Below, piece after piece: positions 13,978 to 60,445 of a stretch of DNA of 64,000 bases. The notes under the pieces were generated by a model. The model did not search any database. It had not been told where the DNA came from and was given only the letters and a program-made list of their open reading frames with translations. Position numbers and translations under genes: made by a program. The first letter of the stretch is position 1; each line of letters begins with the position of its first letter. The stretch covers positions 1,452,306 through 1,516,305 of the forward strand of contig NZ_BSNI01000002.1 of assembly GCF_030159895.1 (NCBI RefSeq), read 5' to 3'. This DNA is from Maritalea porphyrae. GTDB lineage: Bacteria > Pseudomonadota > Alphaproteobacteria > Rhizobiales > Devosiaceae.

Positions 13978-14388
13978 ATGACGCTTGAATTGATTGATAC
14001 GGGACCAGAAGAGTTTATTGCGGCCCCAATCACAGATGAAGAGGGTGGAGCGATGCTTCGTGCAATCCTAAATCTCTTTCAGAAGTGGCGACTGACTGAC
14101 GAAGAGGCCGCGACGTTGCTTGACTTACCGTTGCGCACTTATCGACGCTGGAAGGCTGAACGGCCAGGACGTCTCAGCAACGATTTGAAGGCACGGCTGT
14201 CGAATCTTTTGGGCATACACAAGGCTTTGCGTTTGATTTTTGTTGAGCCTCAACGCGCATACGATTGGATAAAGCTGCAAAATGACGCATTTGGTGGCCA
14301 ATCAGCGCTTGAAATAATGCTTGGAGGCAATCTAACCGATTTGATGCGCGTGCGCCGATATTTAGATGCGGAGCGCGGCGCTTGGTAG
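13978..14388 (+). CDS. Antitoxin, Xre/MbcA/ParS family (DUF2384)
   Basis: 136 residues. The N-terminal half has a helix-turn-helix-like region (LTDEEAATLLDLPLRTYRRW), and the C-terminal half has the ParS/MbcA toxin-binding part ending GGNLTDLMRVRRYLDAERGA. This is the antitoxin of the type II Xre-RES family: it neutralises the toxin by covering its active site and represses the operon. A strong AAGGAGCTAAA ribosome site sets the ATG at 13978. Its stop overlaps the toxin start by 7 bases. Confidence 0.9.
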   Translation: MTLELIDTGPEEFIAAPITDEEGGAMLRAILNLFQKWRLTDEEAATLLDLPLRTYRRWKAERPGRLSNDLKARLSNLLGIHKALRLIFVEPQRAYDWIKLQNDAFGGQSALEIMLGGNLTDLMRVRRYLDAERGAW

Positions 14389-15095
14389 GTGGGACCGCAG
14401 ATGTTCCAATCTGTCATATAGAGTGGCAAAATGCATCGCGCATCGTTTGCTCAATTTACCCGCCGATCGACCTGTTTGAAGACATCGCGGCACCAGAAGA
14501 CTGGCCGCAATTGATTGCGGCTGAACAAAAAACCAATCCGCGATTAATGGAAACAATCGGTAATATTGATCTTGTGCCGGCGCATCGACGTGTCAGCGGA
14601 CCGGGCGCTAGCTACTTGATGGCACCGTTTACCCACACAAGTCGCGATCGGCCGAGCCGATTTTCCGACGGACGTTTGGGTGTCCTATATGTCGCTGCCG
14701 ACTTCGAAACAGCGGTACATGAAACGGCATTTCATCACGCAGAATTCATGCGTTCTACAAAACAGCAATCTGGTTGGACGTCACAGTTTAGAGAACTGGT
14801 ATTGTCAGTCGAAGCGATGCTGCACGATGTTCGGGAAATTGGGACTGAAAAAAGTGACATTCTGCACCTACAGGATTATTCAATTTCGCAGCATTTTGCG
14901 GCTCAATTACGTGCTCAGTCTTCGGAAGGGCTCGTTTATCCCAGTGTCCGAGGTGAAGGCGATTGTGTTGCATTGTTCTATCCGGATTTGGCGAGCGATC
15001 CAATGCAGGGTCGGCATCTAAACTATCATTGGGATGGTCATAAAGTAGACTTAGTGCGAGATATTGGCACTGGCGATGTATTCAGATTGGTTTGA
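14382..15095 (+). CDS. RES domain toxin (NAD+ phosphorylase family)
   Basis: 237 residues. The RES domain is recognisable: RLGVLYVAADFETAVHETAFHH contains the Y and E of the catalytic pocket, and QHFAAQLRAQSSEGLVYPSVR contains the Ser of the R-E-S triad. Characterised RES toxins degrade NAD+ by phosphorolysis or hydrolysis and arrest growth. Translation appears to begin at TTG 14382, with GGAG at 14370-14373; no in-frame ATG occurs near there. The frame overlaps the antitoxin by 7 bases, consistent with coupling. The pair sits between tamAB and the polysaccharide locus. Confidence 0.9.
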   Translation: MVGGTADVPICHIEWQNASRIVCSIYPPIDLFEDIAAPEDWPQLIAAEQKTNPRLMETIGNIDLVPAHRRVSGPGASYLMAPFTHTSRDRPSRFSDGRLGVLYVAADFETAVHETAFHHAEFMRSTKQQSGWTSQFRELVLSVEAMLHDVREIGTEKSDILHLQDYSISQHFAAQLRAQSSEGLVYPSVRGEGDCVALFYPDLASDPMQGRHLNYHWDGHKVDLVRDIGTGDVFRLV

Positions 15096-15238: not shown

Positions 15239-16459
15239 ATGCGCGTCCTGTTAGCACACAAATTCTATGAAACGGTTGGCGGGGCTGAGGTTTTTTTTCG
15301 AGAGACTGAGCGCGCATTGAGGCTGGCTGGGCATCAGACGGAAATGATCGCTACTGGCAATGCCAGTTCAACAGTGCCAAAAAACGTTCATTTGCTTGAT
15401 GCACCTGACTACAAGAACGGCAGCTTCTTCAAAAAAGCTTTGAGTTTGCACACCTCAATTTATGATCTGAACAAACAGAGACAGGCTGCGCAAATAATCG
15501 AAAGATTTAAGCCCGACATTCTTCACATCTTCGCAATCAACGTGCATTTAACACCGGCAATTGTGTTCGCTGCCAAACAAGCAGGTGTGCCCGTCGTTGT
15601 TACCATGAACGACTACAAGCATATTTGCCCAAACTATAAGCTTTATCATCATGGCAAAGTCTGCCGCGACTGCGAAGGTGGAAAATTCTACAACGCAATA
15701 AAGAATAAATGTTGCAAGAACGAACTTGGTTTGTCGGTTGCCAGCGCAATGGAAGCCTATGTTCACCGCGCTATTCGGTATTTTGATCAGATCGACCATT
15801 TCACCTTTTCTAGCGATTTCATTGCACAAGAGACCCAGCAGTTTTGGCCCAACAGGCAAATATCATGGTCTAAACTCCGCAATCCTTTTCAGTCGGATGC
15901 GTACGAAGCCACCGCCGAATATGCGCCATATGGATTGTATGTGGGGCGCGTGATTGAAGAAAAGGGCGTCGACAAAATCCTGCAGGCCGCCGAGGCAGTC
16001 GATGGGTTTTGCATCAAAATTGTCGGAGAGGGGCCAGACCTTGAACTATTGTCGCGCCGGGCTGATCAAAGTGGCGTAACTAACATCGAGTTTCTTGGGG
16101 CCAAATGGGGGGATGAACTCGAGTTGCTAATTGCCGACGCGCGATTTGTCATCGTTCCATCGCTTTGGCACGAGAACTACCCTTATGTTGTGATTGAGGC
16201 ATTTGCCAAAGGAAAACCTGTGATTGGCAGCATAAGGGGCGGTATTCCAGAACTCGTCACGGACGGCGAAACGGGCTTGCTATTTGAGCCTGAGAATCCA
16301 GTTGAGCTTGCCACCAAAATCAGGTTCCTTGCGCAAAATGTAGACATTGCACGTCGTCTCGGAAGGAATGCAAAAGCATTTGCCGATAGGCAATTCACCC
16401 ATGAGTTGTTTTTGCAAGAATTGATGCAAGCCTATGAGTGTGCACTAGACGCTGATTAG
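15239..16459 (+). CDS. Glycosyltransferase family 4
   Basis: 406-residue GT-B fold enzyme. The N-terminal domain begins MRVLLAHKFYETVGGAEVFF, a classic GT4 acceptor-domain opening. The C-terminal donor domain shows YVGRVIEEKGVDKIL near 236 and a SLWHENYPYVVIEAFAKGKPV element near 305-325 holding the EX7E-type nucleotide-sugar motif. A cysteine-rich insert (CPNYKLYHHGKVCRDCEGG and a later KCCKNE) is seen near 130-160 and also occurs in related capsule GT4 enzymes. It probably adds a sugar to the lipid-linked capsule repeat on the cytoplasmic face. It converges on the sulfotransferase gene with a 15-base overlap. Confidence 0.9.
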   Translation: MRVLLAHKFYETVGGAEVFFRETERALRLAGHQTEMIATGNASSTVPKNVHLLDAPDYKNGSFFKKALSLHTSIYDLNKQRQAAQIIERFKPDILHIFAINVHLTPAIVFAAKQAGVPVVVTMNDYKHICPNYKLYHHGKVCRDCEGGKFYNAIKNKCCKNELGLSVASAMEAYVHRAIRYFDQIDHFTFSSDFIAQETQQFWPNRQISWSKLRNPFQSDAYEATAEYAPYGLYVGRVIEEKGVDKILQAAEAVDGFCIKIVGEGPDLELLSRRADQSGVTNIEFLGAKWGDELELLIADARFVIVPSLWHENYPYVVIEAFAKGKPVIGSIRGGIPELVTDGETGLLFEPENPVELATKIRFLAQNVDIARRLGRNAKAFADRQFTHELFLQELMQAYECALDAD

Positions 16460-17470
16460 CACCCGACCCGCGCTCTCGTTGTAACCGGCATCGTGAAGTG
16501 TCTGCTGAAACGGTTCAGCGATTTCTGAACAAAGCGAAATGTTGCCATGTGACGGCGGAGGGTTTGTGTGCGATTTTGCATATTTGAATACTTGGAGGTC
16601 ATCGACAATGTTCAGCCATTCAAATAGTAGCCGCAACTCATTTTCTGAATCGCTGCAGATATTTTCGTAGCGGCAAATACGAAATTGCGAAGCTGGGTTT
16701 ACATCAAGTTTGAGCGCTTCGCGCGTTGTTAGTATCCATTCAACAGCTGCTCGGTCAAAATCAGATTTGGTATCGCGTAACTTCGCTTGATGGGGCGCCA
16801 AGTCGTTATGCTCAGGAACAAGCTGGTCGACTAGTGCTGTCCACTTTCGATCATTTTTTCCCCACCAATTGTGTTTGTCAGATTTGCGGAAGCTAGCATT
16901 CCTCGATGTCCAACGGGCGACCGAGTTTACAACATCAACGCCGTCTCGGATTGGACAAACAAACCTTGCGTCCGGAAACAACGCCTGCACATATTTGGTT
17001 CTAAATACCAACTCCGGATATTTGTCGACGATATGTTTGGCACCCGACGCTGCTAAAGAGAAACCATAAACACGCTGAATTTTCTTTCGGGCTTCGTCAT
17101 TGTCGATTCCTGGTTCAGTCCGTACCGCAGCGGCAACGTCGCTATAAGAACCAATAAGGTCCTCCGCGCCATGTGCGAAATGCCAAAGAGCCTTGGGTTC
17201 ATTCAGGAAGCTGACATCTTGGTGGAGTGCGAACAGTCTTCCAACGAAAGTCGTGCCGCTTCGCCCATTGCCAATTATAAAAATTGGTCGCTCAACAGAT
17301 CGCAACGGTGGCATGAGTTGTGCAATCTTGAACATTGAGAATACAAGCGGATTGATCCATTGACCGCGTGTGGTCAATGGACGTCCCTCCAACAAAGCGT
17401 AATTAACTAGCCTTCCAATTGCCATGGAGGGTCTGTGGCGAAGCATGTCGAGGTCAATTTGCGCAACCAT
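16445..17470 (-). CDS. Sulfotransferase family protein
   Basis: 341 residues. The 5'-phosphosulfate loop of PAPS-dependent enzymes is seen at about 67-80 (GNGRSGTTFVGRLF), and a 3'-phosphate element follows in RFVCPIRDGVDVVNSVARW. No signal peptide is obvious. Located directly behind polymerase and flippase genes on the same strand, it most likely sulfates a sugar of the exported polysaccharide. The acceptor cannot be told from sequence. It begins one base after the polymerase gene ends, so it is probably coupled to it. Confidence 0.85.
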   Translation of the reverse strand: MVAQIDLDMLRHRPSMAIGRLVNYALLEGRPLTTRGQWINPLVFSMFKIAQLMPPLRSVERPIFIIGNGRSGTTFVGRLFALHQDVSFLNEPKALWHFAHGAEDLIGSYSDVAAAVRTEPGIDNDEARKKIQRVYGFSLAASGAKHIVDKYPELVFRTKYVQALFPDARFVCPIRDGVDVVNSVARWTSRNASFRKSDKHNWWGKNDRKWTALVDQLVPEHNDLAPHQAKLRDTKSDFDRAAVEWILTTREALKLDVNPASQFRICRYENICSDSENELRLLFEWLNIVDDLQVFKYAKSHTNPPPSHGNISLCSEIAEPFQQTLHDAGYNESAGRVLISV

Positions 17471-18931
17471 TTACGTTCGCCTCTCCAATAATGATATGCG
17501 ATCGGTTTGTTGCATTCCCAACCGATGGGTTAGGCGCGCGCCAAGTAGGGTGAAAGCAAGCACCCAATAGATTGCCTGTCCAAATATACCGGTTAGAGTG
17601 CCCAGAATAAGCACTGACATGACGAAGCCATGTTCAATCAAGCGAAAGTGCGATTGCCGATCACAAACTCTTTTGTAAGTTAGACCGGACAAGGCGCCAA
17701 ACCCGGCGCAGTAGAGCGCAATGCCAGCGGAGCCCAAGTCAGCATAGGCTTCCCCGAGCAATGTGGCATTCAGTCCGTCCCCTTCAAAGGTGTTGTAGGA
17801 TAGAAGCTTTAGCGTTTGATCGAAAGACATTTGCTGCCCAGGGAGCAGAGTAGACAATGTGTATTGGAACACTGTTGCATCGAAAACATCGGGGTTTGCT
17901 TCCTTTAGTGCGATCACCTGTTGGAACCCCGCAACATAGTTTGAAAACTGTAGCGATCCCCAATGTAAAAACATTGAAAGATTGTCTGAGGATGTAGCTT
18001 GTATGAAGGTAAGTGCACCTATTTCAGTGCTGGTTGAATAGACAACCAGCCGCAAATAACCCCAAATTAAAGCTCCAAAAACTGTTGTAGAGATAAGCGC
18101 TGTCACGAGAAAGGTGTGCTTTTGCGCAGTCGCATAGTTGAAGATAAAAACCAATGTAATCAGTATGAAAAAGGCAGGTCCGCGCCATCCCATTGTAAGG
18201 TTGATTGCAAGCACAAACGCGAACAGGATAAACGCAAGAATGTACATTGATCTTTCTCGCGTGGCTAATGCCAAGACAAAGAAAAAGTATACAGCGAACT
18301 GGGACATCCGCGTAAGGTATACGATATAACTTGTGACTTCTTGACGGGCGGCAAGTCGCGAAACCAATCCATTTTCTGATAGCGCTGGAATGCCGACTTT
18401 GATGTAGATATAGACAGTTGCCAGCGCCGCCGTGCCCACCAAACACCACAGGTAAATGCGCAACAATGTCGATATCGCAAAATCATTCATTTTGGGCGGC
18501 GTGGTTCGAAAATGGACACCAGAACTAAGCAACCAATTCGAAATGGCGAATGACCAAACACCTATGTTTGCGAAAAAAACGATTTGCGCTGCATTTGGCG
18601 ATCCGCTTTCGAAATGTCGAATTGAACCAAGGCCAAAAACGACAAAGAACAACAGTGCAATCACGGATGCCGGATGAAAAAAATCGAGCTTTATCCCGGC
18701 ACCAGCGACAATTATTGCACCACAGGTAAGGGCTAATGAAAAAAGATGCAGACGATAGCTTTCATCTGGGCTTGTGTTTGATACAGCGAGTACGAGAACC
18801 GCAGATCCGATCGCGCAACTCGCAGCAAGCACAATCATCACAATGTGAAGAATACCCAACCGGCGCGGGTGCGCTGTTGATAGAAGTTCACTACTTTGCT
18901 GAGCTCCGGTTTTGCTAGGCAATTGCTGCAT
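17471..18931 (-). CDS. O-antigen/capsule polymerase (Wzy-like)
   Basis: 486-residue integral membrane protein with about ten to twelve hydrophobic segments. A large periplasmic loop lies in the second half (about residues 295-390), the usual topology of oligosaccharide repeat-unit polymerases. It lacks recognisable enzyme motifs, as Wzy proteins do. The final segments fit the O-antigen ligase/polymerase class, and the gene lies between a flippase and a sulfotransferase. It overlaps the flippase gene by 17 bases. The call rests on topology and context more than on motifs. Confidence 0.75.
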   Translation of the reverse strand: MQQLPSKTGAQQSSELLSTAHPRRLGILHIVMIVLAASCAIGSAVLVLAVSNTSPDESYRLHLFSLALTCGAIIVAGAGIKLDFFHPASVIALLFFVVFGLGSIRHFESGSPNAAQIVFFANIGVWSFAISNWLLSSGVHFRTTPPKMNDFAISTLLRIYLWCLVGTAALATVYIYIKVGIPALSENGLVSRLAARQEVTSYIVYLTRMSQFAVYFFFVLALATRERSMYILAFILFAFVLAINLTMGWRGPAFFILITLVFIFNYATAQKHTFLVTALISTTVFGALIWGYLRLVVYSTSTEIGALTFIQATSSDNLSMFLHWGSLQFSNYVAGFQQVIALKEANPDVFDATVFQYTLSTLLPGQQMSFDQTLKLLSYNTFEGDGLNATLLGEAYADLGSAGIALYCAGFGALSGLTYKRVCDRQSHFRLIEHGFVMSVLILGTLTGIFGQAIYWVLAFTLLGARLTHRLGMQQTDRISLLERRT

Positions 18932-20195
18932 GGCCTCCCACCAAAGTTCGACATGTGTAGGCGATCAATACACCTCTGATAACGGTTGCGAGGGCGACGG
19001 CGGCGGCTACAAAAACAATGCTGCCGAAAAGACAAGCGCATGCAATCGCGGCGAGACAAAACGGAACTGTCCAAATCATCACATCACGCACCGATCTTTC
19101 GCGTCCGGCTGCCACTAGTGCCGTGCCGCCAAAGCCCGTTGCGATTGTTACCAAATGACCGGTCGCAAGGATTACAGCGACCAACCAAGTTGTATCATTG
19201 GCAGTGCCAAATATGATTGGCAAGAAAGGTCGAGAGAAAACAATTATGGCAAGAACAATGCCGCCTGCCAAAAAAGCAAGTTTGGTCGTGTCACGGCAGA
19301 TTCTAAGCGCTTGAGATGTTCGGTCCTGAGCAAACTCCTGCGCAAGTCTTGGGGCAATGGCGAGGTTAAGCGTGACTTGAACGTAGATCGTCAGAATAGC
19401 AATTCGATTTGCAGGAAAGTATTGAGCGGCATCTTCATTTCCCAATAATATGCCAACGGCGACAACATCCATTGATACAAGAATTAAGCCCGCAGCGTTC
19501 ACCATCATCAGATCAAAAGAAGATTTGAGGTACTTCAGATCCAGGCATTCTTTTAGCTTGAGAAAAGAAAGTGTGGGAACAAACCCAATAGAATTGAAGC
19601 GAAAAAATTGTAGTCCAACGCAGATGAGCAACGCTGACAATAGGGAGATCGCGCCAGTTTCAATTGTCGCGTTCCCGACTAGCCCCAAGATGAGCAGAAT
19701 TATCGCAAGTGTGAGCAAGCGCCATAAAACCTCGCGTGGTGCCATCGCCCAAACAAACATCCCATGCGCGCGACCTATTCCAGATAGGGCACCGTTTATT
19801 GATAGAATGACTGTCAAAATGTTTGAACAAAACACAATTGTCGGAGTTGCTCCGTTGGCCATGTAAAACCCGGCTACCACTAATCCGCAGAACAAGCCAA
19901 ATACTAGGCTGATGATGACGGCGAGGCTTGCTTTTTCAGATGAGTGGCCAGCATCACGCAGTGCCAGTCCTTTTGAAATCTCCCGTGCGACAAGATCGCG
20001 CTGGCCAAACTCGCCAATGGTGCCCATGAACAAAATCATACTCAGCAAAGTGGCTAACTGCCCGAAGTCATTGGCGGGAAGTAGAAAAGAAGCGATGGAT
20101 GCAAATCCAAATGTGGAAATTAGCCCAAGTACGCGAATTGAAAGTGTATTGCCTACGGCCGCGATTAGCGGGCGCCTGTAGCTCTGCAAAAACAT
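18915..20195 (-). CDS. Polysaccharide flippase (Wzx/MATE-like)
   Basis: 426 residues with about twelve membrane helices, in the pattern of the polysaccharide biosynthesis (PST)/MVF family. The start MFLQSYRRPLIAAVGNTLSIRVLGLIS carries a short basic tail before helix 1. FGQLATLLSMILFMGTIGEFGQRD and the later FLPIIFGTAND are typical of Wzx. It would move lipid-linked repeats across the inner membrane to the polymerase encoded just downstream. A terminator for the upstream spike genes lies only about 25 bases before its start, so its promoter may overlap that terminator or the end of the spike gene. Confidence 0.85.
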   Translation of the reverse strand: MFLQSYRRPLIAAVGNTLSIRVLGLISTFGFASIASFLLPANDFGQLATLLSMILFMGTIGEFGQRDLVAREISKGLALRDAGHSSEKASLAVIISLVFGLFCGLVVAGFYMANGATPTIVFCSNILTVILSINGALSGIGRAHGMFVWAMAPREVLWRLLTLAIILLILGLVGNATIETGAISLLSALLICVGLQFFRFNSIGFVPTLSFLKLKECLDLKYLKSSFDLMMVNAAGLILVSMDVVAVGILLGNEDAAQYFPANRIAILTIYVQVTLNLAIAPRLAQEFAQDRTSQALRICRDTTKLAFLAGGIVLAIIVFSRPFLPIIFGTANDTTWLVAVILATGHLVTIATGFGGTALVAAGRERSVRDVMIWTVPFCLAAIACACLFGSIVFVAAAVALATVIRGVLIAYTCRTLVGGHAAIA

Positions 20196-20217: not shown

Positions 20218-20253
20218 CTAAAAAATATCGTCGCTCGAAAAATTGAGCGACGA
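20218..20253 (-). terminator. Rho-independent terminator after the spike fibre gene
   Basis: A perfect 9-bp stem pairs TCGTCGCTC (20228-20236) with GAGCGACGA (20245-20253) around an 8-base loop. On the minus strand it is followed by TATTTTTTAG. It lies about 50 bases past the spike fibre stop and should end a transcript coming from the spike genes, separating them from the flippase gene. Confidence 0.8.
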
Positions 20254-20301: not shown

Positions 20302-21276
20302 TCAGCCCAGATATGGGTAGGCGACTATGCGTCTTATAGGAGCGCCGGACAGCGGAGGAGTAACAATGTGGCTCCCAGCAATTTCTTCATCACCGGTTTC
20401 AGTTTCAAGAGTTATACGGTGCGTTCCGGTAGGAAGATCCAGCGTAAGAATATCGGCAAGGCGCGATTTCGGCGTGCCGGAAGATAGCACGGGTGTCGTG
20501 GGCGAGGAACCAACTCCGATATTCGGCACGGCGAGACGAATTGAAAAGTCTATTGGGATGCCGCTCGTCGCTGAAAAGAAGTCCAAATTTGCTTTGGCAC
20601 AACCTACCGGGGATGACGAAAGTTTTGAAAAACGCTGAAAACTGGTATCAATGTCGCCACCAATTGCTTTCAGTCCCGCCGCAAGATACCCATTTGCTGC
20701 CGTGTACCAAATTGGACCAAATTGGAAACTGCTGGCATTCGGCAAGTTGCCAGATACAAGCGAACAAAAGAGGGTGGCAATGTGTTCTGCAAGCGGTGTT
20801 GCATTGCATTCGGCAACACCACTAGGGCGCAGCCGCCAATGACTGGTTGGCGTACCTTGGAAACGAAGGTCGATAGACGTTAGCCCTTTGTGGTCGCCAA
20901 CGGCTAGAACCTCGACATTTACTCCGCTGCTTGTTGCGGTCTCGGTCCATCCGGCCGGCAACGTTCCCCCTGCACCAAGGATGCCAATGGTTGCCGAGCT
21001 AGTGCTCGTATAGCTGCCAATTTCGGTAAACTCGCTCTCAATCGTGATACCGTTTTCAGCGAGCGCCAATTGTTCAGTAGCGACGTTTTCCCAATTTCCA
21101 CTATTGTCTGCGACAAGTTTTTCCGTCGCGCGAGTAAACATATAGGCTTCGTCTACGCTTATGTGTTTGCCTAGCGAAACGGCACGACGTCGTAGGAAAT
21201 CTAGGGCAAAGGTTGCATTCTGCGGCCACCACGTCTGTGGTGTCGATGCTCGGGGCGAAATGTAGCCGGATAACAT
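20302..21276 (-). CDS. Phage/GTA head spike fibre-like protein
   Basis: 324 residues, not an enzyme of polysaccharide synthesis. An N-terminal segment (about 45-85) reads FTRATEKLVADNSG, then NGITIES, then T: the FSRAS-type strand pattern found at the start of many phage tail and head-spike fibres. A jelly-roll-like domain follows, with LPAGW at 106-110 and IDLRFQGTP at 135-143. It closes with LAVPNIGVGSSPTTP and SSGTPKSRLAD, the equivalent of the phage motif LPQLExGxxxTSPIxTxGxxxTRxAD. The end is PIRRIVAYPYLG. It starts on the TAATG that ends the spike base gene. In Rhodobacter capsulatus GTA the matching pair (GhsA/GhsB, rcc01079/rcc01080) forms capsule-binding head spikes. The family match is from recall of patterns, not a search. 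Confidence 0.72.
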   Translation of the reverse strand: MLSGYISPRASTPQTWWPQNATFALDFLRRRAVSLGKHISVDEAYMFTRATEKLVADNSGNWENVATEQLALAENGITIESEFTEIGSYTSTSSATIGILGAGGTLPAGWTETATSSGVNVEVLAVGDHKGLTSIDLRFQGTPTSHWRLRPSGVAECNATPLAEHIATLFCSLVSGNLPNASSFQFGPIWYTAANGYLAAGLKAIGGDIDTSFQRFSKLSSSPVGCAKANLDFFSATSGIPIDFSIRLAVPNIGVGSSPTTPVLSSGTPKSRLADILTLDLPTGTHRITLETETGDEEIAGSHIVTPPLSGAPIRRIVAYPYLG

Positions 21277-21539
21277 TAGACAATTCCGACAAGGCTTGTG
21301 GCCGTCGTCCCTGTGGCAAGCACAGCTTGTGCGCGGACCGGCAAAACCGAGCCGCCAGACAGACCTTCAAACGTAACGAGAGCGCCTGATGGGGTTTTTA
21401 ATGTGACCTGACCAGGGCCACCAATGTAGATCGCGCGTACCAATTCGGCGAAATCTGTTACGTCACTTGGCGTAATTGAAAAAGCGTCAAGCGCTGGAGC
21501 GTCAAAGCTAGGTGCTCGTCCTTGAAATCTATCTTGCAT
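21276..21539 (-). CDS. Spike base protein, RCAP_Rcc01079-like
   Basis: 87 residues, the normal size of this small family. Recognisable elements are DAFSITPSDVTDFAELVRAI, YIGGPGQVTLKTPSG, VTFEGLSGGSVLPVRA and a final ATGTTATSLVGIV. I know this order from the head-spike base protein of the R. capsulatus gene transfer agent and its phage relatives. The base anchors the spike fibre to the capsid. The ATG at 21539 has AAGGAA about eight bases upstream, within a small hairpin. The stop overlaps the spike fibre start (TAATG), so the two genes are coupled. No other capsid or tail gene is in the window. Confidence 0.8.
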   Translation of the reverse strand: MQDRFQGRAPSFDAPALDAFSITPSDVTDFAELVRAIYIGGPGQVTLKTPSGALVTFEGLSGGSVLPVRAQAVLATGTTATSLVGIV

Positions 21540-21586: not shown

Positions 21587-22723
21587 TTAGCGGGGATAAG
21601 TTTTTCGAACTTGGTCTTCGAGCAACGCTTCATATTGGCTAAGAACGTTGCCCCATGTGAATTGCCTTCTATGCCGCTCTGCCGCCGCATATCGAGCGGT
21701 TTCTAGCTTATCGGAAGGCGCTGAAAGCATCTCGATAAGCTGTTGGCATTGCACATCGCCAGAGAAAAAGAACTGGGAGTCTCCAGCAGTCCAGCGATTG
21801 TATAAGTTGTCGTGGGCAATAACTGCGCTACCAGCGGCCATTGCCTCGACCAGTGACGGGTTTGTGCCTCCAACGCGGTGCCCATGAATGTGCGCGCGTG
21901 CGTAATAGCGGAGAGCGCCAACAATAGTTTTGTCATAAATGGCGCCGGGGAATATGACATCCTGATTGGCGGCTGCGCGCACCTTTTTGTGGTAGCGGAT
22001 ATTGTCATCCAACGGACCTACAATAACCAGTTTTTGATTTGTCTTCGCATTCGAAAACGCAGTCACAATTTCCAGGATTGAGTTTTCGGGTTCGATGCGC
22101 GCGATTGATAAGAAATAGCAGTCCCGTTTTAATTGAAAACTGTCGAGCACAGAAATCGAGGGAGTTTCAATTTGATCAGCGCCGTAGGGGATCATTGTCG
22201 GCGATTTGAATGAACGAGCGGCAATATGGGTTGCAATGTGTGGGTTGTCCGCAATAGCAATTGAACTGACATTGGCACCGATAAGCTCGTTGCACAGCAG
22301 CCAAAATTTGGCGGGCAATGACCATTTGTCCCGATGCCACTCAATGCCGTCCATATTCATTATAACGGTACGACCCAGCATACGTTGAATGATGTTGAAA
22401 ATTGCTGTGTTATATCCAAGGACGAGATCGATACCATCGCGCCAAACGACATCTTTTACGCATTTGAGATCAAATTCCATTGTGCCTAGAACACCAGCAA
22501 ATTGCGTTCCAATATGAACTCTTTCTACGCCGTGCCAGCGGTCCACGTGAATTTGGATATTTGAAGTCTGTTCCCTAGAACTGGATTGGCAATAGACGCG
22601 TACAAGCCATCCCTTTTGTGTGAGAAAGAGAGCAAGATGCTCAGCAAACGTCTCAAAGCCGCCGTGTCTGGCAGGTACGCCCCTGGTGCCTAAGATGTTG
22701 AGGGTTTTTTGTTTTTTAGACAT
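21587..22723 (-). CDS. Glycosyltransferase family 4 with DUF1972 N-terminal domain (rhamnosyltransferase-like)
   Basis: 378 residues from the ATG at 22723 (MSKKQKTLNILGTRG). NILGTRGVPARHGGFETFAEHL is the hallmark of the DUF1972 acceptor domain of rhamnosyl- and related transferases (WsaF/RgpA type). The C-terminal GT-B domain shows SIARIEPENSILEIV, a HGHRVGGTNPSLVEAMAAG donor motif and a normal family end. The frame continues to a GTG at 22786 and would add a hydrophobic 21-residue leader, but AAGGA lies directly against that GTG, so the internal ATG is preferred. It is transcribed toward the spike genes, 47 bases away. Confidence 0.86.
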   Translation of the reverse strand: MSKKQKTLNILGTRGVPARHGGFETFAEHLALFLTQKGWLVRVYCQSSSREQTSNIQIHVDRWHGVERVHIGTQFAGVLGTMEFDLKCVKDVVWRDGIDLVLGYNTAIFNIIQRMLGRTVIMNMDGIEWHRDKWSLPAKFWLLCNELIGANVSSIAIADNPHIATHIAARSFKSPTMIPYGADQIETPSISVLDSFQLKRDCYFLSIARIEPENSILEIVTAFSNAKTNQKLVIVGPLDDNIRYHKKVRAAANQDVIFPGAIYDKTIVGALRYYARAHIHGHRVGGTNPSLVEAMAAGSAVIAHDNLYNRWTAGDSQFFFSGDVQCQQLIEMLSAPSDKLETARYAAAERHRRQFTWGNVLSQYEALLEDQVRKTYPR

Positions 22724-23126
22724 GCCGTATGTGGGCTTAGTTTTAAGAATGAAATAAAGTAAAAGTGCAAAATATAAGTTGGCCACTCCTTGAACACTGA
22801 ATAAGTATTTTCAGCGAGACCATGAATAGTTAATCAGACTGAACCGTGCGACACAATTCAATTGTTAGGCAGTATTTCCAACAAAAAGCGTTGGATTGCC
22901 GTTTAGCGATAAAGTTGCTAGCCTACCTAAATATTTTTTGACTTTTTAGTTGTTGTTTTGGTTTTGTTTTGGGTTTTCGTTTGATGCCTTTGCACATGAG
23001 TGTTCAAGTTCTCAATTAATGGTATTACTTTGCTCGTCTCAAGCGAATGGGACGGTTGAGAATTCGCGTGCGCGTCTTTTGTAGCCTACTTGCCAAACAC
23101 GACATGGCAATGAATGGGGCTGCGCC
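22724..23126. other. Divergent intergenic region upstream of the autokinase gene
   Basis: About 400 bases without a supported gene, between the leftward glycosyltransferase and rightward wzc-like gene. It is AT-rich with a G/T-rich low-complexity stretch at about 22940-22985 (repeated TTTTG). TTCTCAA at 23009-23015 is repeated inverted as TTGAGAA at 23056-23062, a possible regulator site. Promoters for both directions are expected here, but none is convincing. Confidence 0.4.
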
Positions 23127-25277
23127 ATGAACGAACGAAATATTGATCTGCGGGGCATATTCGTCATCTTACGCCGCCGGGTGAAATTGGTATTGTTCAT
23201 AATTGTCATCGGGATGCTGGCTACCGCGTCATTGCTCTACGCGTTACCTTCCAACTATGTCGCAAAAACTCAGCTTTTTTTGGATGTCGCAGGCGCCGAT
23301 GGCTCCAATACAAAACAATCTAATGCATTTGGGTTGACCAATTCCATCGTCGAAAGTGAGGTGAAGTTGATCAAATCCGAACCAGTTTTGGTCAAAGCGT
23401 TTGCGGATTTGCAGCTCTTGCAGACAGAAGAGTTTGGGAACAAGCGGTCTTGGCTCAGCGTCTTTGGCGTTCCCGGCAGCCCTTCAGGTTTGCAGCAGGA
23501 CGAAGCAGCTGCGTCTCAAGCGTTTGAAGAGTTCAACAAACGAATTTCCGCAAAAAGACTGGGGCTGACCTTTTTAATAGAGGTGACGGCTCGATCGGAA
23601 AACGCGAAGCGTGCAGCAGATATTGCGAATGCTATTGCGAGTTCGCATATCGAGTTAAAACTGAAATACAATCTTGCTCAAACTAAATCAGTACAAGTTC
23701 TGTTGGATGCCAGCGCCGTTGAAACGCGGAAGGTACTTGATGTCGCTGAGACTCAATTGCAGTCATATTTCGTCGACAACTTAGACGAATTCGCGGCGCA
23801 AACTTCTGACACACAACTTGATCAAATTCGGCGTGAACTCCAACTAGTGCAAGAAGATAGAGCGCGTGATGAGCGGCGTTTCGAACTACTAAATGAATTT
23901 GGGCGCGAAAAGAACTGGGATATTCTCAAATCCAGTTCCATAAGTTCGAACTTGCAATTAGCGCAAAAACAAAGGGACGCCTTGCTTCGCCGCATTGAAG
24001 CCGAACCCAATTCGGATGCGAATGAGGCGCTTGATGAACAGCTAGAGCTGTTGCAGAAGCAAATAAATCTATTGGTTGACCAAGAGGTTTCAGTCATCGA
24101 GACAGACCTGCGCAAAGGTATTGTTTTGGAGAAAGACTTGCTTTCTAGGGCGCGGAACCGAGCAGTTGAGTTGGATTTTCCTTCGCCACTTCTAAGACAA
24201 TTCTATCAAATAAAGGCAAGTGCAGAGACAGCGCGCAAGCAATATGAAAATGCGCTCGAGGCAGCTTCTTCCAATCGCGTCCGTGCCGCAACATTGCTTT
24301 CAGATGTCCGTATTGTATCTACAGCGACGGTGCCACTTCACGCCGTCTCGCCAAACCGGCCGTTGATGCTGGCTTTGGCGTTATTGTTCTTTGTTACGGT
24401 TGCAATAATTCTTGCACTTTTGTTGGATCATTATTGGGGTGGCATTTCCTCAAGTGAGCAGCTTGAAGAATTATTGGGTTTGCGAACCGGAGCTGTTTTG
24501 CCGCAAGTTGAAAGTCGCGATGCCTCCTTGCATGCCCGACAGCAACACCTTGCGTTTATTATGGATGATGCACCCAACTCTGCTTTTTCAGAGGCGGTAC
24601 GAAAGCTGCGATCTGAAATTGAAATCTCGGCAGGCAAAGCAAAAGGAAATTCGGATACTGGCGGCACAGTCATTTTGCTTTCTTCTGCTGTTGCGAAAGA
24701 AGGAAAATCAACTGTTTCAATTGCGTTGGCGAAAAACTTGGCTGCGTCTGGCGCACGCACGCTTATCATCGACGCAGATTTGAGAAAGCCGACAATTCAC
24801 GAATATTTGGGTTTGGAGGGGGAAAACGGCCTTGTTGAGTTCTTAAAAGACACAAAGGAAACTGATTTTCTGGCGAAATCCTTCAAAACCCGTGTCGCCC
24901 CAAATTTGGATGTGTTGCCTGGGCGCAGTTTGCTTGGTTTAAAGACGGATGCGCTTGTTTCCAGTGTCGGGTTTCAACAGCTCATTAGAAGCGTGCGTAG
25001 ACATTATGATTTTATCATTCTTGACACGCCGCCGCTGCTGCCTGTCGTCGATACAACCTATCTTTTGCCGCATGCCGACGTGGTGCTTTTGATCGTTGGA
25101 TTCCAAAGTACCGACCAACGACAGGTCCAGCACGCCGCCAAATTGATTGTAGAACACGCAGGCGCAAAAGCTGCAATAATACCGATTCTAAACAAAAGCG
25201 ACCTAATCGCAGCACAATACCTCCAGCATTACGGCGGCTACCGTTTTTCAGGGATTACGCAAATCGCTGCGGATTGA
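23127..25277 (+). CDS. Polysaccharide co-polymerase and tyrosine autokinase (Wzc/ExoP-like)
   Basis: 716 residues. A Wzz domain starts the protein, with a membrane helix at about 20-40. A long coiled-coil periplasmic part (about 190-400) follows, and a second helix at about 412-436. The C-terminal BY-kinase domain has Walker A at about 520-530 (AVAKEGKSTVS), Walker A' (IIDADLRKP) and Walker B at about 628-635 (FIILDTPP). The tail carries three tyrosines in YLQHYGGYRF, fewer than in E. coli Wzc. It controls chain length and export by autophosphorylation cycles. Matching Wza and phosphatase genes are not in the window. Followed after 260 bases by the phosphoglycosyl transferase gene. Confidence 0.92.
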   Translation: MNERNIDLRGIFVILRRRVKLVLFIIVIGMLATASLLYALPSNYVAKTQLFLDVAGADGSNTKQSNAFGLTNSIVESEVKLIKSEPVLVKAFADLQLLQTEEFGNKRSWLSVFGVPGSPSGLQQDEAAASQAFEEFNKRISAKRLGLTFLIEVTARSENAKRAADIANAIASSHIELKLKYNLAQTKSVQVLLDASAVETRKVLDVAETQLQSYFVDNLDEFAAQTSDTQLDQIRRELQLVQEDRARDERRFELLNEFGREKNWDILKSSSISSNLQLAQKQRDALLRRIEAEPNSDANEALDEQLELLQKQINLLVDQEVSVIETDLRKGIVLEKDLLSRARNRAVELDFPSPLLRQFYQIKASAETARKQYENALEAASSNRVRAATLLSDVRIVSTATVPLHAVSPNRPLMLALALLFFVTVAIILALLLDHYWGGISSSEQLEELLGLRTGAVLPQVESRDASLHARQQHLAFIMDDAPNSAFSEAVRKLRSEIEISAGKAKGNSDTGGTVILLSSAVAKEGKSTVSIALAKNLAASGARTLIIDADLRKPTIHEYLGLEGENGLVEFLKDTKETDFLAKSFKTRVAPNLDVLPGRSLLGLKTDALVSSVGFQQLIRSVRRHYDFIILDTPPLLPVVDTTYLLPHADVVLLIVGFQSTDQRQVQHAAKLIVEHAGAKAAIIPILNKSDLIAAQYLQHYGGYRFSGITQIAAD

Positions 25278-25545
25278 CCGGCGCTCCAACTTCAGGTGAG
25301 GCTAATTTGCCCGTCGGTGCGCCACTTCGCTCAACCTTGGGTTAAGTGCGCCGCGTACAGTAGCGCTAGATTTTGTTTTCCGAACGCGAAAATTGAAATC
25401 TTTAAGGCGACGTGTCCCTAAAACATATTTTAATTCAGTGTATTATTGGCGGGTTAATGTTTTGTTAATATATGTATTGATGCGTAAGTAGGTCGCTGTT
25501 AGCGTCAACACATACTTATACTGAAAAATATACTCTAGGTTGTTT

Positions 25546-26244
25546 GTGTTTAATTCAATTGCAAATGCGCGAAATTCAGCCCTTGTGTCGGCAGAATGCC
25601 ACCGATTGATTGAGACTGTCAGCATACCGCGATCAAAGCGGATACTCGACATCTTTGGGGCCTCGATAGGTTTGATAATCTTGTCACCACTGTTCTTGCT
25701 TATTGCAGTTGCGGTTGGGCTGTCGTCGCCAGGCCCTGTGTTTTTTACCCAAACAAGATATGGCCAAGGCGCGAGGCGAATTCGAATACACAAATTCCGC
25801 ACCATGTCTTGGCATCATTGCGACGCACTTGGGGTCACACAGGCGACAAACAATGATGTGCGCGTGACGAGGCTTGGTCGCATTTTGCGTTGGACTAGCT
25901 TTGATGAGCTTCCCCAACTTTGGAATGTTTTAACGGGAGAACTATCCTTGGTCGGTCCGCGCTGCCATGTGCCAAACATGCTTGCTGGGGGTGTGCCCTA
26001 CGAACAGCTTGTCCCGCATTATGAAATGCGCCATCAGGTCGTCCCTGGCATGACAGGATTGGCGCAAGTGAGGGGACTGCGTGGTCCCACGACAAATGCT
26101 AAGCTCGCCATCCGCAGGGTTCACGCAGACATTGAGTATATTCAGAACTGGTCCATTGTTATGGATGTGATTATCCTAATCAGAACCCTCTTTCTGCCAT
26201 TCCGCGGGCTTTCCACCCTTGCGAGAGGCGCAGCTGACGCGTAA
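25546..26244 (+). CDS. Initiating sugar-1-phosphate (phosphoglycosyl) transferase
   Basis: About 232 residues. It links the first sugar phosphate to undecaprenyl phosphate. PF02397 features are KRILDIFGASIGLIILSPLF (re-entrant helix region), SPGPVFFTQTRYG, a HKFRTM element with the catalytic E/D replaced in the usual position by WHHCDA, then FDELPQLWNVL and LVGPRCHVP. PGMTGLAQV is followed by DIEYIQNWS. It is a short form without the four extra N-terminal membrane helices of WcaJ/WbaP, resembling ExoY or PglC. There is no ATG near the start. GTG at 25546, seven bases after TAGG, is preferred over TTG at 25540. The sugar is unknown. Confidence 0.88.
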   Translation: MFNSIANARNSALVSAECHRLIETVSIPRSKRILDIFGASIGLIILSPLFLLIAVAVGLSSPGPVFFTQTRYGQGARRIRIHKFRTMSWHHCDALGVTQATNNDVRVTRLGRILRWTSFDELPQLWNVLTGELSLVGPRCHVPNMLAGGVPYEQLVPHYEMRHQVVPGMTGLAQVRGLRGPTTNAKLAIRRVHADIEYIQNWSIVMDVIILIRTLFLPFRGLSTLARGAADA

Positions 26245-59829: not shown

Positions 59830-60369
59830 TTAGACCAGTTCAGGGTGTTGCTCTGGTTGCTTCTGTCCAAACAGTGGAACCACGTTTTCCGGCAAATCGC
59901 GATTTTGCGCGATCGTCTCGATATAAGCATCGACACGGGCAGCAAGGCCACTATTTTGCGCCGGAACACGCTTGTACTTTGCCGGTTGTTCTAGTCGTGC
60001 AATTGCACGCTCGCGAATATAAGCAGGAGACGTCGGCTTTACGATGACTTCGTCAATTCCAGCAAGGCCAACTTGGCGTTGCATTGCGCGATCGACTTTG
60101 CGCGTTAGTGCAATGATTTGCATGTTCTCAGTATGCATTTGTGGGTTTGATTTCACTGATGAAACCAGTTGCGGGCAGCTCATGTCGTCAAGCTGATAGT
60201 CGCACAGCAACAGATGAATTGGCGCGATGCGCAAATAGACCTGCAGGGCCTTGTGGGTTTCAAAAACGCGCACGCGTACGTCAGGGGTATCTTTTAGCAT
60301 CATAGCCAAAATCGAGCCCAACGCCTTATTTTGTGCAACAATTCCAACAACTTTAAGCGTACGCAACAC
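59830..60369 (-). CDS. Atypical receiver-domain protein
   Basis: 179 residues from GTG 60369. A CheY-like receiver occupies the first 120 residues, with the phosphoacceptor D57 in LLLCDYQLDD and the switch lysine in EVIVKPTSP. The acidic pair that normally follows strand 1 is missing (VVGIVAQNKAL), so Mg-dependent phosphorylation is doubtful. The remaining ~60 residues form no known output domain. AGAGG lies just before both GTG 60369 and TTG 60366, and either may be the start. No kinase lies next to it. Confidence 0.68.
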   Translation of the reverse strand: MLRTLKVVGIVAQNKALGSILAMMLKDTPDVRVRVFETHKALQVYLRIAPIHLLLCDYQLDDMSCPQLVSSVKSNPQMHTENMQIIALTRKVDRAMQRQVGLAGIDEVIVKPTSPAYIRERAIARLEQPAKYKRVPAQNSGLAARVDAYIETIAQNRDLPENVVPLFGQKQPEQHPELV

Positions 60370-60445
60370 ACCACCTCTTTGGTTAATCAAATATTAACAC
60401 CTGGAGGTGTGTCGAGAGAAGGGAAGAATTCAATTTCCCCAATTT

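Follow-up and report, generated by a model that had tools for sequence, protein, structure and literature searches.

How gene transfer agents (GTAs) persist despite the lysis of the cells that produce them is an open question. The closest described system to the locus reported here is the GTA of Rhodobacter capsulatus (RcGTA), the head spikes of which are built from a GhsA pentamer and a GhsB fibre (PMC7296036; PMC10218006). The spike genes of R. capsulatus adjoin the capsule genes and are co-regulated with them, and the fibre binds the capsule (PMC10218006); residues 2–10 of the fibre (IALGLGLGL) dock into the base pentamer (PMC7296036). According to a standing proposal, put forward in a 2024 study, receptor polysaccharides restrict GTAs to kin, the particles being aimed at close relatives via a specific surface polysaccharide (PMC10883770).

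We have analysed a stretch of 64,000 nucleotides from Maritalea porphyrae (Devosiaceae), referred to throughout as the window, in which an earlier note, made from the letters alone, had described a pair of GTA-type head-spike genes inside a capsule locus. Both reading frames were confirmed on the minus strand at the positions that had been described (Table 1).

Identification of the spike genes

The 87-residue protein, which the earlier note had taken to be a spike base, is by homology a GhsA-type head-spike base: phmmer aligns residues 3–83 with the PDB entry 6tb9 chain 'Head spike base Rcc01079' (E = 1.3e-13), and the protein matches PHROG_12296 with E = 1.8e-26. The homology to Rcc01079 spans the whole ∼85-residue jellyroll protein, and residues Pro15, Ala16, Asp26, Arg35, Gly43 and Pro67 are invariant among 29 relatives. 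ghsA is present as a single copy in the genome. Its reading frame overlaps that of ghsB in an ATGA-type stop/start (one base of stop and start), an arrangement common to most relatives.

Single-sequence searches with the 324-residue protein gave no match in Pfam, PHROGs, the PDB, phages or viral contigs, and its family membership is therefore profile-based. A profile of GhsB and nine relatives (A4) found 'Head spike fiber Rcc01080' (6tb9_F3) over positions 45–313 with E = 2.5e-9, and a 13-member profile (A5) found it over positions 3–290 with E = 3e-21; both values depend on profiles that include GhsB itself. On these profiles the protein is assigned to the Rcc01080 spike-fibre family, as had been proposed, and the motifs FTRAT, LPAGW and SPTTP..SRLAD proved to be genuine columns of the fibre-family alignment.

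The AlphaFold2 model of GhsB (13 sequences; pLDDT 70, pTM 0.69) is a beta-sandwich protein. A first model from six sequences was poor (pLDDT 47) and its fold matches were set aside. In Foldseek, the best PDB matches of the 13-sequence model are CBM4, the Klebsiella capsule-depolymerase K2-2 tailspike and proteins of phage baseplates or fibres, with E values of 2e-4 to 1e-3, and the best viral structure matches include tail fibres. The model thus resembles carbohydrate-binding modules (CBMs) and phage tailspike domains; the scores are moderate, and it suggests a 'carbohydrate-binding-like' protein without pointing to which sugar.

The leader of the window GhsB reads MLSGYISP and has no LGLGL or LGL repeat; the leaders of several intact relatives (among them G044 and G052) are also weak. 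The absent repeat is the main weakness of the argument that this GhsB would function on a particle. Among 101 genes that follow ghsA, LGL-type triplets occur in the leaders at 1.36 per protein versus 0.20, and no shuffle was as high. The bodies behind the LGL-type leader fall into unrelated groups: lectin-like proteins, GDSL esterases, and sialate O-acetylesterase with LamG. Mean normalised distances are 0.32 for GTA_TIM, 0.53 for GhsA and 0.95 for GhsB; that GhsA lies well under GhsB fits a base that is retained and a fibre that is swapped. Judged from these leaders and bodies, the fibre has been exchanged across the relatives for unrelated bodies beneath a recurrent leader anchor, which is new here.

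On three plasmids, from Thioclava, Limimaricola and Cereibacter (L343, L344 and L345), the genes in the fibre position are annotated as sialate O-acetylesterase or SGNH hydrolase, and their products are possible deacetylating GTA head spikes. Orphan spike bases, with no fibre gene behind ghsA, were seen at L035, L037, L043, L044, L070 and L073, and include that of the closest relative of the window genome (G003).

The polysaccharide locus around the pair

Table 1. Features of the spike and polysaccharide locus (positions in the window)
Feature	Position	Strand	Evidence
Glycosyltransferase family 4	15239..16459	+	Pfam Glycos_transf_1, E = 1.7e-30
Sulfotransferase	16445..17470	-	Pfam Sulfotransfer_3, E = 5.8e-21
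Probable polymerase (Wzy-like), adjoining wzx	17471..18931	-	Pfam O-ag_pol_Wzy, 19.4 bits, below cut-off of 26.6
Flippase (Wzx-like, Polysacc_synt/MatE)	18915..20195	-	Pfam, E = 2.1e-7, above cut-off
Intrinsic terminator directly 3' of ghsB, between ghsB and wzx	20228..20253	-	9-pair hairpin and T tail
ghsB, head-spike fibre, 324 aa, predicted beta-sandwich carbohydrate-binding protein	20302..21276	-	Profiles A4/A5, AlphaFold2, Foldseek
ghsA, head-spike base protein, 87 aa	21276..21539	-	phmmer to Rcc01079; PHROG_12296
Glycosyltransferase (DUF1972 + Glycos_transf_1), 47 bp upstream of ghsA	21587..22786	-	Pfam, E = 1.7e-17 and 1.9e-9
Wzz/BY-kinase polysaccharide co-polymerase	23127..25277	+	Pfam Wzz, GNVR, AAA_31
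Candidate CtrA-type site (TTAACAAAACATTAAC), 72 bp before the priming transferase	25453..25468	-	Motif match
Priming sugar-phosphate transferase	25540..26244	+	Pfam Bac_transf, E = 7.1e-59

The pair does lie, as described, between a glycosyltransferase gene and the flippase and polymerase genes on the same strand. Bac_transf, Polysacc_synt, Wzz with AAA_31 and two glycosyltransferases together give the composition of a Wzx/Wzy-dependent polysaccharide locus, the polymerase match being weak (Table 1). No Wza-type export protein was found in the locus, and the sole Poly_export protein of the genome lies 370 kb away; a 'capsule locus', as opposed to one for O-antigen or slime, is therefore not established, and 'polysaccharide locus' is the safer term. 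The flanks are housekeeping genes, with TamA/TamB on one side and a two-component system and a sugar ABC transporter on the other. The ghsB–wzx spacer has a folding z-score of −4.36 and, because this strong intrinsic terminator closes ghsB before wzx, ghsAB are probably carried on the transcript of the upstream glycosyltransferase gene, apart from wzx–wzy.

CtrA controls GTA genes in R. capsulatus. CtrA-type sites occur at two distinct places in the 64 kb (mean expected 0.32). One is the candidate in Table 1; the second, a palindrome (TTAATCAAATATTAA) at 60382–60398, overlaps the start side of a minus-strand ORF at 59830–60390. The stretch that holds the GTA cluster yielded no full CtrA-type site, which leaves the site at 25453 as a lead only.

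An Xre/MbcA-type antitoxin and a RES-domain toxin are encoded at 13978–15095 (+) of the window, at the edge of the polysaccharide genes, and toxin–antitoxin pairs are also frequent at plasmid-borne spike loci. In the window, and again on four marine plasmids (L336, L337, L338 and L346), the spike pair has a sulfotransferase gene nearby, a recurrence that gives a hint of sulfated polysaccharide receptors.

Linkage in relatives and on plasmids

The linkage with polysaccharide genes recurs in relatives and is statistically strong there. At least one core polysaccharide gene lies within 10 kb of ghsA at 34 of 43 Devosiaceae loci, compared with two of 40 random 20 kb regions of the same genomes; the Devosiaceae genomes share ancestry, and the 43 loci are not 43 independent events. 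The polysaccharide gene models were trained on Devosiaceae and built partly from ghsA neighbourhoods, and Pfam Wzx over whole genomes was therefore used as a second measure: it is found within 10 kb of ghsA in 13 of the 43 genomes, where 0.86 are expected and the maximum among a million random placements was eight. The gene immediately upstream of ghsA varies (ManC, Wzz/BY-kinase, GDP-mannose dehydratase, glycosyltransferase and others). Wza (PF02563), taken as a linkage marker, was unlinked to ghsA in every genome, so that the association concerns assembly genes and not the exporter.

In Rhodobacterales, polysaccharide genes were detected within 10 kb at 18 of 34 named chromosomal loci and at none of the other 16, some of which the Devosiaceae-trained models may miss. 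The contig of R. capsulatus SP108 (L124) stops inside the fibre gene and does not bear on linkage. In Caulobacterales none of nine loci has polysaccharide genes and all nine have the pair inside the GTA cluster, as is likewise the case in Kaistia. Set against the Devosiaceae, this gives the ghs genes two homes.

At three loci of the Devosiaceae genus g9 (L046, L049 and L052), a short DUF2793-like gene (GTA tail-fibre type; 247–264 residues) lies 9–18 bp upstream of ghsA, with glycosyltransferase genes near two of the three, as if head and tail adhesins had moved jointly.

ghsA was also found on 23 PLSDB plasmids, nearly all from Rhodobacterales. Polysaccharide genes lie beside it on nine of the 12 annotated plasmids examined (Marinovum, Tritonibacter, Sulfitobacter W002, S. 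dubius, Rhodovulum, Loktanella, Roseivivax, Limimaricola and Acuticoccus), a raw count without a random-region baseline; the neighbours, within 10–12 kb, are flippase, polymerase, sugar transferase, glycosyltransferase, sulfotransferase or dTDP-rhamnose genes. The Acuticoccus copy is not followed by a fibre gene. The Thioclava FTW29 and Cereibacter plasmids have no polysaccharide genes near ghsA, and the copy on the plasmid of Paracoccus sp. TOH lies among phage genes (a prophage). With the linkage present on plasmids, the genes for ligand and receptor can be moved together by a single replicon.

The GTA of the genome and the distribution of ghsA

The earlier note had proposed a search of the rest of the genome for a GTA structural cluster, and a full one was found, from the terminase through to GTA_TIM and DUF2793. 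It lies on the same contig (L034; C2, 1534.9–1549.9 kb), about 62–76 kb from ghsA, and contains terminase, portal, S78 protease, capsid, tail tube, DUF2460, hub, GTA_TIM (E = 1e-138) and DUF2793 genes. By gene content, this is a complete RcGTA-type structural cluster, including the GTA-specific megatron.

GTA_TIM is present in 116 of 151 relatives and ghsA in 50 of 151. The family in question is Devosiaceae, since the sequence of one of its genomes (G044) is the same as that of Devosia subaequoris throughout the part compared. Within Devosiaceae, ghsA accompanies 38 of 70 genomes with GTA_TIM versus five of 21 without it (odds ratio 3.8, Fisher p = 0.024). One of the five Devosiaceae with ghsA and no GTA_TIM match (G075) is a single finished contig in which ghsB is intact.

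Covariation of fibre and polysaccharide genes

With the GTA_TIM distance removed, the distances between fibres are correlated with those between polysaccharide genes (partial Mantel r = 0.32, p = 0.0002). Leaving out two genomes that are near-duplicates lowers the coefficient to 0.125 (p = 0.045), and leaving out five lowers it to 0.09 (p = 0.12). For glycosyltransferase, Wzx and Wzy alone, with close genomes removed, r is 0.23 (p = 0.018). The fibre covaries no less strongly with all neighbours (r = 0.43) than with polysaccharide genes, and one pair of genomes (G057 and G066) has a common fibre and different polysaccharide genes.

Loci without ghsB have 0.8 polysaccharide neighbours on average versus 2.6 for loci with it (p = 0.002). 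In the sister genome G003, the locus is conserved on either flank and has a ghsA with 84% identity, while ghsB and every polysaccharide gene are absent; ghsB and the polysaccharide genes thus behave together there, and ghsA apart. Three further congeners have the GTA and lack the cassette beside a conserved flank; the syntenic sites in G001, G002 and G005 were placed through a flanking gene. By eye, the G003 site (L289 and L035; C11, about 464–481 kb) carries genes that include sulfur-oxidation (sox)-like and recQ-like ones instead of polysaccharide genes, and forms a variable island bounded by TamAB and a sensor kinase.

The suggestion that ligand and receptor 'travel and evolve together' as 'one cassette' is therefore upheld in part. 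The plasmids and the relatives speak for travelling together; strict ligand–receptor co-evolution is only suggested, given the fall in the coefficient without near-duplicates and the mismatch of G057 and G066. The cassette stands as a linkage and not as an indivisible unit, since G003 keeps ghsA without ghsB or polysaccharide genes.

Discussion

We consider it probable that the pair encodes GTA head spikes that bind the surface polysaccharide built by their own locus, with matching specificity maintaining the linkage. A GhsA pentamer would cap each capsid vertex and hold one flexible GhsB fibre, the beta-sandwich body of which would bind the cell-surface polysaccharide; the spike genes would stay in the locus that assembles this polysaccharide (priming transferase, glycosyltransferases, Wzx, Wzy-like protein, Wzz/BY-kinase and sulfotransferase). 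When recombination or plasmid transfer gives a lineage a different surface sugar, the spike for that sugar would tend to accompany it, and particles would thereby keep reaching cells of like surface type. We infer that the spikes of the window are mounted on the GTA of this genome, that they bind the product of the neighbouring locus and that matching specificity is what keeps spike and polysaccharide genes linked. Against this stand the MLSGYISP leader, the five genomes with ghsA and no GTA_TIM match, the terminator, the weak covariation, the 16 of 34 Rhodobacterales loci and the lack of a CtrA-type site in the GTA stretch.

The most serious competitor, which we hold to be unlikely although worth keeping in view, is that polysaccharide loci are recombination hot spots that gather surface-related genes, so that fibre and local polysaccharide would not have to match. 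The equal covariation with all neighbours and the shared fibre of G057 and G066 agree with this, and Rhodobacterales plasmids may be rich in polysaccharide genes in general; however, loss of ghsB accompanies loss of polysaccharide neighbours, both on average and in the sister G003, the covariation with glycosyltransferase, Wzx and Wzy persists after close genomes are removed, and the R. capsulatus fibre binds a locally encoded capsule (PMC10218006). It is improbable that the pair is instead left over from a prophage or moron, stranded among the polysaccharide genes and without a role on a GTA. Phages commonly encode relatives of GhsA (38 phage records, with a further 232 stretches that match in viral contigs), the Paracoccus plasmid copy does sit among phage genes and several relatives have ghsA without ghsB. 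Yet both frames are intact with a conserved overlapping start, the polysaccharide association recurs at 34 of 43 loci, ghsA is associated with the presence of a GTA, and the distances of GhsA and GhsB are those of a retained base and a swapped fibre. The earlier statement that no other phage gene is present in 64 kb holds for the neighbours scanned, no phage family being found among about 20 window proteins, which are part of the ORFs.

Slighter still is the chance that the fibre is an enzyme-type spike, a depolymerase or esterase that trims the polysaccharide for particle passage, and not a simple lectin. Elsewhere, GDSL or sialate O-acetylesterases make up the body of several GhsB proteins, and one match of the model is a capsule-depolymerase tailspike, but the window GhsB has no esterase family match and its model fits non-catalytic CBMs best.

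That spike and capsule genes adjoin and are regulated together is already known from R. capsulatus. New here are the Devosiaceae-wide linkage, the plasmid-borne pairs, the swapped fibre bodies, including esterases, and the GTA-internal home in Caulobacterales and Kaistia; our search, which covered open-access literature, turned up no account of such linkage in Devosiaceae or on plasmids, nor of GTA head fibres of the esterase type. As a tentative extension, in which we place clearly less belief than in locus-matched head spikes, spike and surface-polysaccharide genes might act as an exchangeable unit of recognition, on the chromosome or on a plasmid, by which a conserved chromosomal GTA is re-addressed, with a fibre slot that takes lectin-like bodies or polysaccharide esterases. 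If so, a new surface locus or plasmid would bring its matching adhesin and with it entry to a new gene-exchange group, a greenbeard-like form of horizontal transfer. If the ligand is encoded within the receptor-building locus across the family and on plasmids, surface type would set the partners in gene exchange, the surface coat may help to decide which cells swap genes, and the kin-targeting proposal becomes testable. The linkage also offers a simple route, in annotated genomes where ghs genes are generally labelled 'hypothetical protein', to the polysaccharide likely to be recognised by a given GTA.

Comparison with known systems

Capsule-specific phage tailspikes such as the Klebsiella K2-2 TSP share local fold similarity and presumed polysaccharide recognition with GhsB, which differs in having no sequence family match, in being a head rather than a tail spike and in being host-encoded. 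Phage head spikes (RcapNL, RcWaterboi and others) have GhsA relatives that are about 40% identical, but their genes lie among phage structural or integrase genes; no relative of the window fibre was detected in the phage collection. GTA clusters with internal spikes (Brevundimonas, Kaistia, Sphingomonas and others) use the same ghsA family, usually followed by a fibre gene, and carry the ghs genes among those for terminase, portal, capsid or megatron, whereas in Devosiaceae they are found with polysaccharide genes. The nearest system is that of RcGTA (Rcc01079/Rcc01080), which shares with the window a homologous base and fibre encoded by overlapping genes outside the main GTA cluster and beside polysaccharide genes (PMC10218006; PMC7296036). 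In contrast to RcGTA, the window pair belongs to Hyphomicrobiales (Devosiaceae) and lies between a glycosyltransferase gene and a separate wzx–wzy–sulfotransferase unit, its fibre lacks the canonical LGLGL anchor, and the fibre bodies across its relatives are unrelated folds that include esterases.
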